DNA of 36,742 nucleotides. Source: Minisyncoccota bacterium. Its GTDB lineage: Bacteria > Patescibacteriota > Minisyncoccia > UBA6257 > 2-01-FULL-56-20. Each line of letters begins with the position of its first letter. Position 1 is the first letter of the stretch. Below, in pieces: positions 6,999 to 36,742 of this stretch. Location of the stretch: contig JANWIW010000008.1 of assembly GCA_025449695.1 (NCBI GenBank), positions 1 through 36,742 of the forward strand, in the 5' to 3' direction. The position numbers and the translations under genes were made by a program. Below the pieces are notes generated by a model, which was not told the origin of the DNA, ran no database searches, and was given only the letters and a program-made list of their open reading frames with translations.

Positions 6999-8528
6999 AT
7001 GAAACGTACCGTGGTGCTCGTCGTCCTGGACGGCTGGGGTATTGGCCGCGACGACGAATCGAACCCCATCCATATGGTCCATCCTCCGACACTGGAGCGG
7101 CTGGCCGCGGAGTATCCCATGACCTCGCTCCAGGCATCGGGCATCGCCGTGGGACTGCCCTGGGGAGAGGTGGGTAATTCCGAGGTGGGCCACCTCACCC
7201 TGGGCGCGGGCAAGGTCCTCTACCAGTACTATCCGAAGATAAGCCTCGCCATCCGGGACCGCACGTTCTTTGAGAACGCCGCGCTTCTCGCGGCCTTCGC
7301 GCACGCGAAGAAGAACAACTCCGCCGTGAACCTGGTGGGACTTTTGAGCAAGGGCAACGTGCATGCATCCCTGGAGCACGTGGAGGCGCTCCTCAAGATG
7401 GCCGGCGAGCAGGGGGTGACCGACGTGAAGCTCCATCTTTTTGCGGACGGGAAAGACACCCCGCCCAAGTCTTTGGAGCGTTTTCTTGAACTCCTGCCGC
7501 GCGACAAGGTTGCGACGCTCGCCGGGCGGTACTACGCCATGGACCGGGAAGGGAACTGGGGCCTGACCCAGGAGACCTATAACCTGCTCACCGAGGACGG
7601 GCCCGCCGCGCCCGGCCTCGCGGCCGTCATCCAGGCCTGTTATGCCAAGGGTTTGAGCGAGGAATTCCTGCCGCCGACGCGGGTGGCCGCCGGAAAACAG
7701 ATCGCCGACGGCGACGCGCTCATCTTTTTCAACTATCGCGAGGATTCCATCCGCCAGCTCGCGGAAGCCTTCATCGCCAAGGAATTCGACAAGTTCCCGC
7801 GAGCATCCCTGCCGAACCTCTTCACCGTGACCATGACCCATTATAAGGAGGGATTTGAGGCGCCGGCGGCGTTTCCGGCGGACGTGGTGAAGAACCCTTT
7901 GGGCAAGGTGATCGCGGACCAGGGGCTCGTCCAGCTGCGCCTCGCGGAGACCTACAAGTACGCGCACGTGACTTACTTTTTCAATGGTTACATCGAGGAG
8001 AAATTCCAGAACGAGTACCGCGTGGTGATCCCCTCCGAGCCCATCCCCCATCCGGACGAGCGGCCGGCAATGATGGCAACGGCAATCACCGACCGCCTGG
8101 TCGCCGCCATCGAAGAGCGCGCGTACAGCTTCATATTGGTGAATTATGCGAACGGCGACACCGTCGCTCATACGGGCAACTACAAGGCCGCCGAGGAAAC
8201 GGTCAAGGTGATCGACCGGGAGCTGAGCCGGGTCGTTGCCGCGGTGGAGGCGACCGGGACCGTCCTCCTTATTACTTCCGATCACGGCAACGTGGAGGAG
8301 CTCCTGAATCCCATGACCGGCGAGCCGGAGACGCAGCATGACCCGAGTCCCGTGCCTTTCCACCTGATCGCTCCGGAACTCCGGGGTCGCCGTTTCGGCA
8401 ACTGGCCGCACGTGCGCGAGGAAACGGGCGGCATCCTTTCCGATGTCGCGCCGACTATCCTTGAACTCATGGGGATCCAGAAGCCGGAAGACATGACCGG
8501 CGAGAGCCTGCTGAAGGAACTTGTATAG
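6999..8528 (+). CDS. gpmI: 2,3-bisphosphoglycerate-independent phosphoglycerate mutase
   Basis: The 509-residue length is typical of iPGM. The N-terminus VVLVVLDGWGIG carries a metal-binding Asp; GEVGNSEVGH contains the catalytic Ser (Ser61); YAMDREGNW, FFNYREDSIRQL, NYANGDTVAHTG and ITSDHGNVEEL carry the remaining metal-binding Asp/His residues. It interconverts 3- and 2-phosphoglycerate in lower glycolysis in the cytoplasm, Mn-dependent. No Shine-Dalgarno site is visible, but TATAAT stands seven bases before the ATG, so the mRNA may be leaderless. The gene sits between repeat-rich spacers and is followed by a semi-palindromic CTAGATT/AATCTGG spacer that begins at its stop codon. Confidence 0.97.
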   Translation: MKRTVVLVVLDGWGIGRDDESNPIHMVHPPTLERLAAEYPMTSLQASGIAVGLPWGEVGNSEVGHLTLGAGKVLYQYYPKISLAIRDRTFFENAALLAAFAHAKKNNSAVNLVGLLSKGNVHASLEHVEALLKMAGEQGVTDVKLHLFADGKDTPPKSLERFLELLPRDKVATLAGRYYAMDREGNWGLTQETYNLLTEDGPAAPGLAAVIQACYAKGLSEEFLPPTRVAAGKQIADGDALIFFNYREDSIRQLAEAFIAKEFDKFPRASLPNLFTVTMTHYKEGFEAPAAFPADVVKNPLGKVIADQGLVQLRLAETYKYAHVTYFFNGYIEEKFQNEYRVVIPSEPIPHPDERPAMMATAITDRLVAAIEERAYSFILVNYANGDTVAHTGNYKAAEETVKVIDRELSRVVAAVEATGTVLLITSDHGNVEELLNPMTGEPETQHDPSPVPFHLIAPELRGRRFGNWPHVREETGGILSDVAPTILELMGIQKPEDMTGESLLKELV

Positions 8529-15736: not shown

Positions 15737-18700
15737 CTAAACCTTCACGAGCGCGATCTTCGCGCGGCCCTCGAAATCCCCCGCCTGCACCAAGGCTTCG
15801 GCGGGCGCGGTCGCCTTCTCGATCTTGGAGATATAGGTTTTCTTCGCGTCGAACAAATTGAACGCCTGTTCTATCTCCGCATCGGCGGTCTCATAGCGCA
15901 ACGCCGCCATCTCGCCCACTTTGAAACCCTGCGCCTTGCGCATTCCCTGTACGAAACGCTCCAAGCCGCGGGTCAAGCCTTCGAGCTTCAGTTCGGGGGT
16001 CAGTTCCGTATCGAGCTTGGCGATGGGAACATCGCCCGTCATTTTAAAGATGCCTGCCTTTTTGACATTGAGCTCGTCGCACAGGATACGGGTCAGTTCG
16101 GGGTCCAGCTTCGCATCTTCCGTCCCCATCTCGATGGTGACGCCGGCGAGGGGCTGACGAACTGGCAGGTTCAAAGCCTTGCGCGCCGCCAAACCCAAGC
16201 TGGCTGCCTCGCGCACGGTACGCATCTGCTTCAAAAGCTCCTGTTCTTTCTCCGTGAGAGCCTGCTTCTCCGGCCAGCTTTGCAGATGCACGCTCTCGAC
16301 CTTCTTTGTTCCGCCTTCCAGATTCCAGATTCCAGATTCCAGATTCTGGTATATCGCCTCCGCAAGGTGCGGCATAACCGGAGCGATGACCTTGGAAACG
16401 GTGATTAAAGTTTCGCGGAACGCGGGATAGAACCCGGCATCTTCCCGGCCGCGCGAGCGGCGCAAGTACCAGGTGGAAAGGTCGTCAATGAAATTCTCCA
16501 TGGAGCGCGTCGCATGCACGGTGTCATAGCTGTCCAGGTGATCGGTCACCTCGTTGACCAATTCCTTGGTGCGCGCGGTGATCCAGCGATCCAAAGCAAA
16601 GCCATGCTTTGGATCGCTGTCCCGCGTAGCTTTAGCGAAGTGGGACTCGTCACTTTTCTCTTGCGGCGCACCCGCCTTCGCTAAAGCTTCGGCGGGCAAG
16701 TAAGTAACATAGTACTGGTACACGTTCCAGAGGATCATGACCACCTTGCGATAGACGTTCCCGAGGTCTTTCTCGCTGAAGTTCACATTGTCGCCCTGCA
16801 TCACGACCGAGTTCATGAGATAGAAGCGCAGGCTGTCCACGCCATACTTGCCGATGGTAAGCCACGGGTCCGGAAAGTTGTTCTTGGACTTGGACATCTT
16901 GCTGCCGTCCTCGGCAAGGATGTTGCCCGTCGTGACCACGTTCTCGAAGGGAGCGCGGTCGAAGATCACTTGCGAGATCACATGCATCACATAGAACCAG
17001 GCGCGGGTCTGGGCGATATACTCGGCCACGAATTGTGCTGGGAAGCGGCTCTCAAATAATTCCTTGTTTTGGAAGGGATAGTGATACTCGGCGAAGGGCA
17101 TGGAACCAGCCTCCACCCATGAGTCGAAGATCTCCGGCGTGCGCCGCATCTTGCCGCCGCACTCGCAGGCGAGAATCACCTCGTCTATGTAGGGGCGGTG
17201 GAGATCGGTCAAGCCCGTCACCACCTCGCGCGGCGTCGCGTAGTCCGGCTCTACCAGGATGTCCTCTCCGAGCGCTTCCATGACGAGCCAGAGCGGATCG
17301 CCGTGACTCACGATGACGATGCTCTTGCCGGGGTGTTTGGCGGTCAGCTCGTTCACGATTTCCACCATGCGACTGCGGATGCCGGTCCAGGTCTCGCCCC
17401 CCTCCGGAGCTATCTTCCACCATCCCGCCGCAGGACGAGACTTGTCAAAATCCTTCTCTGATTTCCCGTTCCAGATCCCCACATTGAACTCCCGGAGGCG
17501 GGGGTCGGTCACGACCGGCACGCCGGTTGCCTCGGCCACGATCTCCGCGGTTTCCCTGGTGCGGAGGAGATCGGAGGAGAAAATCAGGTCCACGCCCTTC
17601 GCTTTCAGGGCTTCCGCCGCGGCGCGCGCCCCTTCTTTGCCCTTCTCCGTGAGGTGGTACACGCCCGGCTCCGGGTAAGCGCTGATAATATCCTCCACGT
17701 TCTGTTCTGCCTCGCCGTGCCGCATGAAATGGAACGTCGTGGGCGCGAGGCCGAGATCGGCGACGCTGCCTGCCACTTTCTGCCTGCCGCAATCCCCGCA
17801 TTTCCACACGGGGATGGGATTCCCCCAGTAGCGATTGCGGGAGATGTTCCAGTCCGGCGCGGCCTCCACCGACTTCTCGTAACGGCCGTGCTTCAGATGG
17901 CCGGGAAACCAGTTGATCTGCCCGGCATTAGTGCGCAGGAGATCGGGCTTTATCTTCTGCACATTGATGAACCAGGCCGGGATCGCATTGTAGTAGAGGG
18001 CGGTACCGCAGCGCCAGCAGTGCGGATAAGAGTGGGTATGCATGGTCCGCTTGAGGAGCAGGCCGCGCTGTTCCAGGTCCTCCTTGATAGCCTTCTCGGA
18101 ATGTTTGAAATACTGCCCGCGGATGAGTTCCGGCGCTTCCATGTTGAATTTCCCTTTCTCGTCGAGAAGCGGCACGATCGGCAATCCCTCCCGCAGGCCC
18201 AGCTGGTAATCGTCCTCGCCGTATACGACTGCGGTGTGCACAATGCCGGTGCCCTCCTCAGTGGTCACGAAATCGGCCGTATAGACCTTGAACGCCCTCT
18301 CACTCCTCAGTGCCGGGATATCGAAGAGAGGCTCGTAGGCCAGACCGGCCAGGTCCTTGCCCTTGGACTCCGAAAGTATCTCGTATCCTTCCGGCGCGAC
18401 CTTCGCCACCAGCTCCTTCGCGAGGACGTATGTTTCTCCGCCGATCTTTGCCTTCACGTAATCGATCTCGGCGCCCACCGCGAGGGCGACGTTCCCCGGC
18501 AGCGTCCAGGGCGTGGTGGTCCACGCCAGGAGATACACATTGCTGTCATCCTGAGCCCCATACTTCATACGGGGCGAAGGACCTTCTCCCTTTGAAACAG
18601 AAGGTTCTTCGCCGGCGCTCAGAATGACAGAGGGAGGGGTGCTTATTCTGAATTTTACATACACCGACTCCTCGCTCACGTCCTTGTAGCTGTTGTCCAT

Positions 18701-19357
18701 CGCCACCTCGAAGTTCGAGACTGGCGTCTCGCACCGGGGGCAATAGAGCAAGACCTTGCGGCCCTCGTATACGAGGCCTTTGTCGTATACCTGTTTGAAC
18801 GCCCACCAGACCGACTCCATGAAGGTGCGGTCCATGGTCTTGTAGGAATTCTCGAACTCGGTCCAGCGCCCCATGCGGCGAACCATCTTGGCCCATTCGT
18901 CCACGAACTGGAGCACCATGGAGCGGCAGGTCTCGTTGAACCGCTGGATGCCGATCTCTTCGATCTGCTTTTTGCCGGAGATGCCGAGTTTGCGCTCCAC
19001 GATCTCCTCGATCGGCAATCCGTGGCAATCCCAGCCCCAGCGGCGGCGGACGAACCGCCCGTGCATCGTCTGATAGCGCGGTATGAGATCTTTAATAGTG
19101 GAAGCGAGAATGTGTCCGTAATGCGGAATGCCCGTCGCGAACGGCGGTCCGTCGTAGAACGTGAAGGGCTTGCCATCCTTGGTACGCTCCAGGGATTTTG
19201 CGAACGTGGTGTCCTTTTCCCAGAATTCGATAACCCTCTCCTCAAGCTCGGGGATGGACAGCGTGTCGTCAAAGGGCTTTCCTGCGGCCGGCTTTTCGAA
19301 TCCCTCGAGCATGTCCCTCAAAGTACCAGAAAGCCAAGGAAAATCAAAGGCGCCCAT
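15737..19357 (-). CDS. ileS: Isoleucyl-tRNA synthetase with embedded histidine phosphatase domain
   Basis: About 1206 residues from the ATG at 19357; ATG at 19312 (MLEGFEKP) is an alternative. Longer frames to 19516 overlap the promoter and start of the divergent gene and were rejected. Class I core: HYGH at 79-82, editing domain beginning LLAWTTTPWTLPGN (near 275), NRYWGNPIPVW, KMSKS near 820, and a C-terminal anticodon-binding region. Zinc-type CxxC pairs occur at CPRC, CGDC and CECG. Between GSVADLGL and VVTGLTDLHRPYIDEV, residues about 540-701 form a complete histidine phosphatase domain: RHG in FMRHGEAEQN, Arg in SSDLLRTRETAE, Glu in LREFNVGIWNGK and His in IVSHGDPLW, so all four catalytic residues are kept. 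Three further insertions come from repeats: about 243-272, 888-925 and 1003-1014. The core charges tRNA-Ile; the role of the phosphatase domain is unknown. Confidence 0.93.
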   Translation of the reverse strand: MGAFDFPWLSGTLRDMLEGFEKPAAGKPFDDTLSIPELEERVIEFWEKDTTFAKSLERTKDGKPFTFYDGPPFATGIPHYGHILASTIKDLIPRYQTMHGRFVRRRWGWDCHGLPIEEIVERKLGISGKKQIEEIGIQRFNETCRSMVLQFVDEWAKMVRRMGRWTEFENSYKTMDRTFMESVWWAFKQVYDKGLVYEGRKVLLYCPRCETPVSNFEVAMDNSYKDVSEESVYVKFRISTPPSVILSAGEEPSVSKGEGPSPRMKYGAQDDSNVYLLAWTTTPWTLPGNVALAVGAEIDYVKAKIGGETYVLAKELVAKVAPEGYEILSESKGKDLAGLAYEPLFDIPALRSERAFKVYTADFVTTEEGTGIVHTAVVYGEDDYQLGLREGLPIVPLLDEKGKFNMEAPELIRGQYFKHSEKAIKEDLEQRGLLLKRTMHTHSYPHCWRCGTALYYNAIPAWFINVQKIKPDLLRTNAGQINWFPGHLKHGRYEKSVEAAPDWNISRNRYWGNPIPVWKCGDCGRQKVAGSVADLGLAPTTFHFMRHGEAEQNVEDIISAYPEPGVYHLTEKGKEGARAAAEALKAKGVDLIFSSDLLRTRETAEIVAEATGVPVVTDPRLREFNVGIWNGKSEKDFDKSRPAAGWWKIAPEGGETWTGIRSRMVEIVNELTAKHPGKSIVIVSHGDPLWLVMEALGEDILVEPDYATPREVVTGLTDLHRPYIDEVILACECGGKMRRTPEIFDSWVEAGSMPFAEYHYPFQNKELFESRFPAQFVAEYIAQTRAWFYVMHVISQVIFDRAPFENVVTTGNILAEDGSKMSKSKNNFPDPWLTIGKYGVDSLRFYLMNSVVMQGDNVNFSEKDLGNVYRKVVMILWNVYQYYVTYLPAEALAKAGAPQEKSDESHFAKATRDSDPKHGFALDRWITARTKELVNEVTDHLDSYDTVHATRSMENFIDDLSTWYLRRSRGREDAGFYPAFRETLITVSKVIAPVMPHLAEAIYQNLESGIWNLEGGTKKVESVHLQSWPEKQALTEKEQELLKQMRTVREAASLGLAARKALNLPVRQPLAGVTIEMGTEDAKLDPELTRILCDELNVKKAGIFKMTGDVPIAKLDTELTPELKLEGLTRGLERFVQGMRKAQGFKVGEMAALRYETADAEIEQAFNLFDAKKTYISKIEKATAPAEALVQAGDFEGRAKIALVKV
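16318..16349. repeat. Tandem CCAGATT heptamers inside ileS
   Basis: Four tandem copies of CCAGATT at 16318-16345 followed by CTGG. On the ileS strand they encode NLESGIWNLEGG. The same motif builds the intergenic inverted repeats at 8527-8586 and 11592-11668. Confidence 0.85.
16585..16696. repeat. Palindromic repeat cluster inside ileS (AGCGATCCAAAGC hairpin and neighbours)
   Basis: A perfect 13-bp hairpin, AGCGATCCAAAGC (16585-16597) with GCTTTGGATCGCT (16606-16618), is followed by GTAGCTTTAGCGAAGTGGGA (near 16626) and by CCCGCCTTCGCTAAAGCTTC with GGCGGG (16671-16696). On the ileS strand the cluster encodes SHFAKATRDSDPKHGFALDR and neighbours, a low-conservation stretch before the anticodon-binding part. 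Confidence 0.8.
18543..18630. repeat. TGTCATCC-family palindromic element inserted in frame in ileS
   Basis: The outer arms CTGTCATCCTGAGC (18543-18556) and GCTCAGAATGACAG (18617-18630) match 13 of 14. The inner arms GGCGAAGGACCTTCT and AGAAGGTTCTTCGCC match 14 of 15. On the ileS strand the element adds about 30 residues (SVILSAGEEPSVSKGEG and on) between YVKF and the editing-domain motif, leaving the frame intact. Confidence 0.88.
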
Positions 19358-19415
19358 GACGACCCCGTCGTGTAGGCAGGCTCGTTTTTTCTGTGCCGCG
19401 CCGCAGATGCGGGTT

Positions 19416-19444
19416 TTGACAGAGGCTTCCTTATCCGATATAAG
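19416..19444 (+). promoter_or_regulatory. Promoter of the 19462 gene
   Basis: Consensus TTGACA at 19416-19421, spacer of 17, TATAAG at 19439-19444, followed by GGAGG and the ATG at 19462. It overlaps the upstream extension that a longer ileS start would need. Confidence 0.8.
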
Positions 19445-19461
19445 GACCTTGGAGGCTTCAC

Positions 19462-19824
19462 ATGAACAATCAGGATGTCCGAGTGCTTCAAGCGGAGCAC
19501 TCTCACCATTACGCAATTGTGAGCGAGCCGAGCAACGGCGTTGCCATTCTCCTCATCGCTGATCGACAGAGAAACGCGCTGGTTGCGCTCTTGCTCAAAG
19601 GGCCGCTCCAGGGTGACAACAATCTCACGCTCTCCTTTGTCGACACGAGAAACCGGGGCGAGCTCGAACCGGGATTTCCCCTGACCGGCTGGCGGCAGAG
19701 CAACACGATCTTCCGGAGCGCCCTGGCCCGCTGGCTCATGAACGTGAGCGAGTTCCCGCACGTGTGCCGTAACGAGGACCTGATCAGATCCTTCCACGAA
19801 CACATCGAGGCATCGACGCGCTAA
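19462..19824 (+). CDS. Hypothetical protein divergent from ileS
   Basis: Unrecognised soluble protein of 120 residues. The ATG follows GGAGG (19450-19454) by seven bases and a consensus promoter by 17 bases, so the transcript leader is short. The sequence has a beta-rich N-terminal half (VRVLQAEHSHHYAIVSEP, GVAILLIADRQRNALVALLL, NLTLSFVDTRNRG) and a helical C-terminal half (SALARWLMNVSEF, LIRSFHEHIEAS). No signal peptide or membrane segment. Monocistronic, ended by the hairpin at 19881-19905. Confidence 0.75.
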   Translation: MNNQDVRVLQAEHSHHYAIVSEPSNGVAILLIADRQRNALVALLLKGPLQGDNNLTLSFVDTRNRGELEPGFPLTGWRQSNTIFRSALARWLMNVSEFPHVCRNEDLIRSFHEHIEASTR

Positions 19825-19907: not shown

Positions 19908-21599
19908 CTATATCGCCTCGAGCGTCTCGATGCCGAGGAACTCCAGGCCGCGGGAGAGGATGTGCGCGGCGGTCTCCGCGAGCATAAGACGCGCGGTGCG
20001 GCGCGCGGCATGGGTGTCGGCCAGAATCGCCTCGTCCTCGTAAAAACGGTTGGCGAGCGTCGAGAGTTCGTAGAGGTAGTTGGTTAGGTTGTTGGTTATG
20101 AGCCCTTCCGTGCTCCGGCGCACCTCGACCGGGAAATGGAACATCTTGCGCATGAGACGGAGCTCATGCTCCGTCGTGAGATGCGAGGCGTCTCCTTTGG
20201 CCGGCCCCCCGCCTTTCTCCAGCAGACGGTGCAGGCGCGCGTAGGTATAGAGCAGGTAGGGGCCGCTATCCCCCTTGAGGTCCAGTATCTTGTCCCAATC
20301 GAAGCGGATGTCCGAGGTGCGCGCCTCCCGCAGCATGAAATACTTGAGCGAGCCGAGCCCCACTTTCTCCGCGGTGCGCATGACCTGCCCCGGCGCCATG
20401 CCGGGGTTCTTTTGAACGACGATCCTGCGGACCCGTTCCACCGCTTCGTTGGCCAGGTCCTCGATGGAAACGCTCGTGCCCTCGCGGGTGGACATCTTGG
20501 CGCCGTTCGCCCCGAGGAGCAGCCCGTACTTCACGTGCCGCAGCTCCACGTCATGATCCAGCCCCAGCCTGCCGGCGATGGCGAAGAGCTGCTGGAACTG
20601 CAAGGTCTGCTCGTTCCCGATCACGTAGAGCAGGCGCTTCGGCCCGTAGTTCAGGACCCGGTAGGCGAGGGCTACGATGTCGCGCGTAAGGTAGAGGCTC
20701 GCGCCGTCGGTTTTGCGGATGAGGGCGGGCGGCAGGCCCACGTCGTCCAGCTTCACGATCACCGCGCCCTCGCTGAACTCCGCGATGCCGCGCTCCAGGA
20801 GATCCTTGATCAGGGGCTCGAGCTCCCTTTCAAAGAAGGACTCCCCGATATACTCGTCGAAGCGGATGGTGAAGCGCCGGTAGATCGCCTCGATCTCGAG
20901 GAGCGTCGCCGTGCGGAACTTGTTCCAAAGCTCGCGGTTCTCGCTGTCCCCCGTCTCGAGCTTCCTGAACTCCTCGCGGGCATTGTCGAGCAGTGCCGGG
21001 TCGTTCTTGGCCGCCTCGTTGAAGCGCACGTACATCCGTTCCAGCGCGCGCACGGGATGGTCGTTCAGCTCCACGGCATCGCCCCACATCTTGTAGGCGG
21101 CGATGATCTTGCCGAACTGCGTGCCCCAGTCCCCGACGTAGTTCCAGCGGATCACCTGGTATCCGTTCACCTGGTGGAGCCGCGCCAGAGCTTCTCCCAG
21201 GGAGTTGTTGCGCAGATGGCCGGCGTGCATCTCTTTGGCCATGTTGGGGCTCGAGAACTCCACGATGACCTTCAACCCCTCTCCCGTCTTGTTCTGCCCG
21301 TAGGCCTTGTTCTCGGCGATGCGCGCGAACTCCGCCTGGACCGCGGCCGGAGAAAGCCACATGTTGATGAAGCCGGGTCCCGCGACCTCTAGCCGCTCGA
21401 AGAACCCTTCCGGAGCTTCCCGCTCGATCGCCCGCAGGATGTCCTCCGCCGTGACCCGCGGATTGGTGTGCCGTTCCTTGGCGAGCTGGAGCGCGATCGG
21501 CGTCGTATAGTGGCCGAACTCTTCCCTTGCCTCTGCGGCAACCTCTCCGCGAGGCTCGCCCACCGCCTTATGCAAAAGTTTTTCCAAAATGTCCTTCAT
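19908..21599 (-). CDS. argS: Arginyl-tRNA synthetase
   Basis: 563 residues from the ATG at 21599, a normal ArgRS length. The N-terminal Add-1 domain is followed by the class I site VEFSSPNMAKEMHAGHLRNN (HAGH as HIGH), WNYVGDWGTQFG, and KMSTREG as the KMSKS equivalent; the C-terminal DALR anticodon-binding domain begins near LLYTYARLHRLL. It charges tRNA-Arg. The frame extends to ATG at 21614, but that codon overlaps the likely -10 box TATGAT, so 21599 is preferred; the leader would be only a few bases. It converges with the small gene at 19462 and diverges from smpB, with a palindromic repeat in the shared upstream region. Confidence 0.96.
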   Translation of the reverse strand: MKDILEKLLHKAVGEPRGEVAAEAREEFGHYTTPIALQLAKERHTNPRVTAEDILRAIEREAPEGFFERLEVAGPGFINMWLSPAAVQAEFARIAENKAYGQNKTGEGLKVIVEFSSPNMAKEMHAGHLRNNSLGEALARLHQVNGYQVIRWNYVGDWGTQFGKIIAAYKMWGDAVELNDHPVRALERMYVRFNEAAKNDPALLDNAREEFRKLETGDSENRELWNKFRTATLLEIEAIYRRFTIRFDEYIGESFFERELEPLIKDLLERGIAEFSEGAVIVKLDDVGLPPALIRKTDGASLYLTRDIVALAYRVLNYGPKRLLYVIGNEQTLQFQQLFAIAGRLGLDHDVELRHVKYGLLLGANGAKMSTREGTSVSIEDLANEAVERVRRIVVQKNPGMAPGQVMRTAEKVGLGSLKYFMLREARTSDIRFDWDKILDLKGDSGPYLLYTYARLHRLLEKGGGPAKGDASHLTTEHELRLMRKMFHFPVEVRRSTEGLITNNLTNYLYELSTLANRFYEDEAILADTHAARRTARLMLAETAAHILSRGLEFLGIETLEAI

Positions 21600-21609
21600 T
21601 GTCGTAATA

Positions 21610-21639
21610 ATCATAACTGCCTGTGTAATATAGCCGCAA
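21610..21639 (-). promoter_or_regulatory. Candidate promoter of argS
   Basis: On the minus strand TTGCGG (21639-21634), spacer of 18, TATGAT (21615-21610). Transcription would start about four bases before the ATG at 21599. Confidence 0.5.
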
Positions 21640-36362: not shown

Positions 36363-36742
36363 ATGGTCACCATCATCTTCGAAGCACACGGAACGACGAC
36401 GGACAATGAGGCTAAGCTCGCGTCCGGCTGGAACGACGTGGGCCTCTCGCCTCTTGGCGAGGCACAAGCCCGGGAGCTCGGGGAACGGCGGAAGGGTGAG
36501 GAGATCGCGACCGTGTTCTGCTCTGACCTCATGCGCTCATACCGGACGGCGCAGCTCGCCTTCGGCAGGAAGCTCCCCATCGTGGAGGACCGCCGGCTCC
36601 GCGAGTGCGACTACGGCGACCTGAATGGCGAACCGAGCGAGTAAGGTGGATGCGGAAAAGGGCGCGCGCCTTCTCGTCCCCTTCCCGAACGGAGAAAGCT
36701 ACGCGGGCACGACCAGGCGCATGCGCGAATTCCTGCTGGACC
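36363..36742 (+). pseudogene. Histidine phosphatase family protein, frameshifted and cut by right edge
   Basis: The frame from the ATG at 36363 encodes 93 residues: VTIIFEAHGTTTDNEAKLAS, GWNDVGLSPLGEAQARELG, FCSDLMRSYRTAQLAFG, LRECDYGDLNGEPSE, then TAA at 36642. The +1 frame continues the family sequence without interruption (KVDAEKGARLLVPFPNGESY, TTRRMREFLLD) to the window end, so a single-base change near 36640 breaks the gene. The motif is EAHG in place of RHG, a known variant group in this superfamily. It may be a true pseudogene, a sequencing error or a rare frameshift. It follows the TrmB gene directly. Confidence 0.75.

Follow-up and report, generated by a model that had tools for sequence, protein, structure and literature searches.

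A predicted histidine phosphatase nested in or encoded beside isoleucyl- and valyl-tRNA synthetases of Patescibacteria

Few enzymes have been studied as closely as the aminoacyl-tRNA synthetases. Across a large branch of ultra-small bacteria, however, the synthetase for isoleucine, and sometimes that for valine, comes with a complete phosphatase. This is a striking example of a predicted-active enzyme domain lodged at several different sites within an essential enzyme, and it raises a concrete question: which phosphorylated molecule needs to be cleared during the charging of isoleucine and valine? The analysis concerns a locus on contig JANWIW010000008.1, of which the whole analysed stretch of 36,742 nucleotides is referred to as the window; the genome is about 0.98 Mb in size and its relatives are Patescibacteria. 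The synthetase gene, its parts and its upstream neighbor are located in the window as follows.

15737..19312, minus strand: ileS, encoding an isoleucyl-tRNA synthetase (IleRS) of 1191 residues with a nested histidine phosphatase (HP).
17747..19312, minus strand: N-terminal part of IleRS, with the first half of the catalytic domain (HYGH), the CP1 editing domain (WTTTPWT), CP2, the linker DWNISRNRYWG and the start of CP3, assigned by Pfam and by comparison with yeast IleRS (PMC7955072).
17789..17800, minus strand: first Cys pair of the CP3 zinc hairpin (CGDC, residues 505–508), just before the insert; the two Cys are kept in 46/50 and 42/50 aligned IleRS.
17159..17167, minus strand: second Cys pair of the hairpin (CEC, residues 716–718), just after the insert; kept in 47/50 and 46/50.
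15740..17218, minus strand: C-terminal part of IleRS, with the remainder of CP3, the second half of the catalytic domain (KMSKS) and the anticodon-binding and C-terminal domains, assigned by Pfam.
19908..21614, minus strand: argS, the neighboring gene upstream of ileS and on its strand; a stand-alone HP gene separates argS from ileS in several other genomes.

The ileS frame is a single open stretch (15737–19516, minus strand) that extends to a TTG at 19516, with the ATG at 19312 as the likely start of the protein analyzed here (P0001). P0001 scores 795 bits against the NCBIfam ileS model (cut-off 621.4) and contains the class I signatures HYGH and KMSKS as well as the CP1 editing motif WTTTPWT; a normal editing domain is present alongside the nested HP. 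Pfam divides tRNA-synt_1 into two stretches with a complete His_Phos_1 domain in between (E 3.9e-39), in agreement with the initial annotation, which had reported a complete HP domain inside IleRS and placed it at 17255–17740, close to the ~17219–17746 determined here (Pfam match 17270–17731). The insert is preceded by DWNISRNRYWGNPIPVWKCGDCG and followed by DLHRPYIDEVILACECGG, and thus separates the two Cys pairs of the second zinc hairpin, which are retained in most nested enzymes. In yeast IleRS the matching linker, ARDWNVSRNRYWG, bridges CP2 and CP3 and lines the pocket for the CCA end (PMC7955072); we therefore assign the nested HP to CP3. A full-length AlphaFold2 model of P0001 (mean pLDDT 87.5, pTM 0.81) contains a well-folded insert and an intact synthetase core, which the insertion does not disrupt. 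The best PDB match of this model is the type 2 (eukaryote-like) bacterial IleRS of Priestia megaterium, IleRS2 (8c8v), with which it shares the CP1 editing domain and the CP3 zinc hairpin; unlike the window IleRS, known IleRS2 structures have a CP3 without an enzyme domain.

IleRS sequence resumes in frame beyond the insert, and 55 of 61 genomes in our first set carry the nested domain, in support of the original proposal of a nested insertion and not an end fusion or assembly join. We rejected an assembly artefact because the same nested domain recurs across dozens of independent genomes, and this recurrence, together with an invariant catalytic set, places the nested domain far beyond chance. 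A survey of the class to which the source genome belongs detected this type of HP in 216 of 286 genomes; about 17 of the approximately 150 HP frames among the matches listed were short, and nearly all of the rest were IleRS-sized (~680–1353 residues). Carriers of the nested domain include, by name, Doudna-, Lipton-, Uhr-, Terry-, Jorgensen-, Specht-, Moran-, Harrison-, Sung-, Nealson-, Kaiser-, Azam-, Adler-, Colwell-, Wolfe-, Vogel-, Yanofsky-, Brenner- and Campbellbacteria, and outside the class, within the same phylum, the distribution is patchier. In 37 relatives the large HP-bearing frames are IleRS and valyl-tRNA synthetase (ValRS), save for one of 838 residues (L050; 484–2997, plus strand), a non-synthetase with HP on its C-terminal side that appears phage-like (portal-like) by eye. 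LeuRS, also an editing synthetase, was without HP. For many of the 37 relatives the nested copy is the sole HP of the genome. An HP-ileS pair of the Nealsonbacteria type was also present on one small contig (L089) of a metagenome-assembled genome labeled WOR-3; because this is 1 of 147 genomes of that phylum, the contig is probably misplaced, and we do not regard WOR-3 as a second phylum with HP-IleRS.

The nested domain and its catalytic positions are listed below, with conservation given over 104 aligned rows labeled IleRS, a set that includes two ValRS sequences (L080 and L123).

~17219..17746, minus strand: nested HP, branch 1, residues ~523–698 (Pfam match 17270–17731).
17717..17722, minus strand: catalytic Arg531-His532 (RHG), the His being the expected phospho-acceptor; invariant (104/104).
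17561..17563, minus strand: catalytic Arg584 (LLRTRETAE); invariant.
17489..17491, minus strand: Glu608 (LREFNVG), the expected proton donor; Glu in 96/104 and Asp in 8/104.
17393..17395, minus strand: Glu640 of the GGET motif; invariant.
17303..17305, minus strand: second catalytic His670 (VSHGD); 103/104, with one gap.

HP chemistry acts on phosphoesters; a cis-editing domain of a synthetase would hydrolyze mischarged tRNA or adenylate. The insert belongs to PF00300 branch 1 (134.8 bits against a cut-off of 21.7), with the Arg-His pair, the second Arg and the second His in place, and all four catalytic positions noted at the outset (R531-H532, R584, E608 and H670 of P0001) are present. L080 and L123 were rejected as IleRS once they proved to be ValRS, and both were left out of a cleaned set of 114 main-clade sequences, in which the catalytic positions are likewise the most conserved of the domain. 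The catalytic residues are also the same in the tandem copies and in 14 of 14 stand-alone relatives, with an overall identity of about 40% across the nested IleRS rows and these relatives. The active site of the insert is under constraint, and its sequence predicts a catalytically competent phosphatase. Modeled alone, the domain reaches a pLDDT of 95.5. The PDB structures that it matches best are those of phosphatases: PhoE (1h2e), mycobacterial GpgP (4pz9, 6s2q) and Hydrogenobacter phosphoserine phosphatase 1 (4ij5). These enzymes, the nearest relatives of the nested HP, share its fold, its RHG/Arg/Glu/His site, its size and the GE motif; they are free enzymes, whereas the HP described here is nested in IleRS or ValRS or encoded beside ileS. 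The main IleRS clade further differs from other HPs by the signature SHGDPLW, with Trp where the others mostly have Arg or Lys.

More specific family assignments failed. The insert scores 92.9 bits against the cofactor-dependent phosphoglycerate mutase model dPGM_arch (cut-off 225), with PDB mutases aligning to HP mostly over the N-terminal half only, and 78 bits against alpha-ribazole phosphatase CobC (cut-off 162.9). Among the best HP family scores of the window protein is that of the RNase H/acid phosphatase fusion PRK07238, which similarly joins HP to a nucleic-acid enzyme; PRK07238, however, is an end-to-end fusion with RNase H, and the window score is far below its 326-bit cut-off. The NCBIfam family NF040702 (IleRS with a GNAT domain) likewise has a second enzyme domain in IleRS, with a different inserted chemistry; P0001 scores 286 bits against its cut-off of 1999 and contains no GNAT domain. 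NF040702 shows that curators already know of catalytic insertions in IleRS. Whether relatives were already described had been left open by the initial annotation: the curated NF040702 family carries another enzyme in IleRS, and no description of an HP nested in IleRS was found in the open-access literature, to which the search was confined. A complete phosphatase in or beside IleRS across much of this bacterial radiation seems to be undescribed.

Beyond what had been annotated, we found stand-alone HP genes beside insert-free ileS, separate ValRS insertions, tandem copies and a second IleRS insertion site. A stand-alone HP gene is present in 25 genomes and adjoins ileS in 19 of them, usually just upstream, and among the IleRS found in those 25 genomes none contains a nested copy. 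An initial group of 12 stand-alone HPs, from among the 80 best matches, falls entirely inside the IleRS-HP clade. IleRS is insert-free in all 12 of these genomes (frames of 900–1090 residues), and 10 of them have the HP gene upstream of ileS and in the same orientation; eight of these 10 pairs are within ~50 bases of each other or overlap, with a spacing of ~120 bases in L107 and a larger one in L087. The gene preceding the stand-alone HP is argS in most of these loci, as argS is upstream of ileS in the window. In a second set from the class survey (13 genomes, that is, 15 listed minus two already counted), HP lies beside ileS in 9 of 13, and a nested copy is present in 0 of the 11 genomes with a detected IleRS. 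Under a crude model, computed on 26 genomes that included one duplicate later removed, the HP-ileS adjacency would arise by chance with a probability of ~1e-40. Two genomes (G047 and G057) combine an insert-free IleRS with a stand-alone HP of this type elsewhere in the genome. The exclusion between nested and stand-alone copies is not absolute, as one genome (G004) has a nested HP plus a free HP of the same clade. In the window, the spot occupied elsewhere by the stand-alone HP, between argS and ileS, contains a 120-residue open frame on the opposite strand (19462–19824, plus strand) without a PHROGs match.

ValRS also carries HP, in at least three lineages and at several sites. The main ValRS-HP group carries the domain in a place equivalent to that of the IleRS insert, with the zinc hairpin gone; a second group comprises L171 and L172, and a third, from Magasanikbacteria (L080 and L123), has HP at a later site. 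One family of IleRS (frames of 1441–1551 residues) contains two tandem HPs; with moderate support, one of them is placed outside the main IleRS clade and its partner close to the ValRS copies and PhoE. In another Patescibacteria IleRS (L167; 1138–5490, minus strand), a GNAT-like insert (residues 666–764), comparable to NF040702, occurs together with an HP located after KMSKS (residues 917–1069). An unrelated insert of ~150 residues occupies the same CP3 place in three IleRS of family f43 (L201–L203). A free HP that follows a CxxC segment (L181; 6284–6961, minus strand) falls in the ValRS-HP clade, and may have been cut out of ValRS or been the source of a ValRS copy.

Simple descent from a single origin does not fit these data: on the IleRS core tree, nested, neighboring and missing HPs occur dispersed across both deep lineages, and in the HP trees the copies from ValRS and the tandem copies stand apart from the main IleRS clade. 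The starred branches of the core tree (a quick SH-aLRT tree) force at least 12 state changes; the HP trees rest on a domain of ~170 residues and are only partly supported, and we treat event numbers as approximate and claim none exactly. The pattern is consistent with repeated gain, loss, excision or swapping, in either direction, such that an apparently active phosphatase has been joined to IleRS or ValRS repeatedly, in cis or as a neighbor. What would set this apart from other IleRS insertions is the recurring cis-or-neighbor link of one predicted-active phosphatase family to two synthetases. The nested-or-neighboring pattern constitutes a natural experiment that ties the phosphatase to one or two synthetases. 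Since HP occurs in cis at several sites and also as a separate gene, closeness to and co-production with the synthetase seem to outweigh fixed geometry. Direct transfer between the active sites of HP and synthetase is unlikely, because the HP sites differ widely and a stand-alone gene exists.

A glycolytic role for the nested HP was evaluated against one further gene of the window.

6999..8528, plus strand: iPGM, cofactor-independent phosphoglycerate mutase.

Because iPGM is present in 16 of the 17 genomes tested, the window genome included, the nested HP is not needed as a glycolytic mutase, and we rejected a mutase hidden in IleRS. Compensation for a missing pyrophosphatase likewise found no support: family I pyrophosphatase, the type compared, is absent from 9 of 16 HP-bearing genomes and also from 4 of 6 without nested HP.

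We infer a phosphatase activity with a charging-linked role. The insert would be a phosphomonoesterase of the PhoE/GpgP/phosphoserine-phosphatase kind, predicted to be catalytically competent, that may have specialized, in Patescibacteria, as a partner of IleRS and, independently, of ValRS. Following the usual HP route, phosphate would be transferred to His532 and then hydrolyzed. The substrate would be a small phosphorylated molecule produced or encountered by the synthetase, or inhibitory to it, with by-products of amino-acid activation and editing (for example AMP, pyrophosphate or dinucleotides) or a phosphorylated inhibitor as candidates that might be cleared near the enzyme. The data speak neither for nor against the substrates suggested in the initial annotation (an adenylate by-product, a pyrophosphate-like or nucleotide ligand, or tRNA 3' phosphate) or the regulation of the synthetase that it also suggested. 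The presence of iPGM, the conservation of the catalytic residues together with the separate copies, and the several sites together with the stand-alone form lead us to favor such local removal of a by-product or inhibitor. The absence of HP from LeuRS, a further editing synthetase, counts against this explanation, and the distribution of family I pyrophosphatase ties HP to no particular ligand. We consider it fairly likely that an active phosphatase serves IleRS and ValRS, and the explanation as a whole, a predicted phosphatase as dedicated partner of the two synthetases in Patescibacteria, is on balance probable; the assignment of the substrate class to by-products or inhibitors of charging is tentative and less likely than not. 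We would give an even chance to a wider proposal: that isoleucine and valine charging in Patescibacteria is specifically coupled to a phosphohydrolytic step not described before, which would serve quality control, clear a by-product or undo a phospho-inhibition, and that the HP responsible has time and again been inserted into, released from or placed next to IleRS and ValRS. The association could reveal a new form of synthetase quality control, regulation or self-protection.

Four other explanations were weighed. HP might instead be a protein phosphatase that reverses phosphorylation of the synthetase, for example on its KMSKS loop, or of a His or Ser of a partner, and so regulates charging. 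HipA-type kinases phosphorylate other synthetases at the KMSKS loop, and HPs that act on proteins exist (SixA and PGAM5); such a role would suit an HP that works in trans as well as in cis from more than one site, and would agree with the restriction of HP to two synthetases. The closest solved HP relatives nonetheless act on small molecules, and we regard this explanation as unlikely. As the null explanation, a general PhoE-like metabolic phosphatase could also simply be housed in a permissive IleRS or ValRS loop of a small genome, its substrate unrelated to translation. That the nested copy is the only HP in many genomes, and that the CP3 loop accepts other inserts (the unrelated one in L201–L203), would suit this idea, which is made improbable by stand-alone copies that remain beside ileS and by insertions that recur solely in IleRS and ValRS, one of them at a different site.

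It is less plausible still that HP heals tRNA ends by stripping a 3' (or 2') phosphate from damaged, synthetase-bound tRNA to enable charging or rebuilding. Precedent for a phosphohydrolase attached to a tRNA enzyme comes from the E. coli CCA-adding enzyme with its HD domain; we know of no HP that acts on RNA ends. The location of the insert is suggestive, in that it follows the DWNISRNRYWG linker and the corresponding yeast segment lines the pocket for the CCA end (PMC7955072); on the other hand, some HP copies are separate genes or come after KMSKS, and only two tRNA families would benefit. A purely structural role, with the HP fold acting as a brace for CP3 or tRNA and its chemistry left over as a relic, would suit an HP anchored in CP3 between zinc-binding Cys pairs but is very improbable, given that conservation within the domain is highest at the catalytic residues and that separate HP copies exist.

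Finally, a second, partial HP frame lies at the contig end of the window (36366–36640, plus strand). Its first catalytic Arg is replaced by Ala (EAHG) and it ends in an early stop; gene decay, a frame shift or an error in sequencing would account for this.
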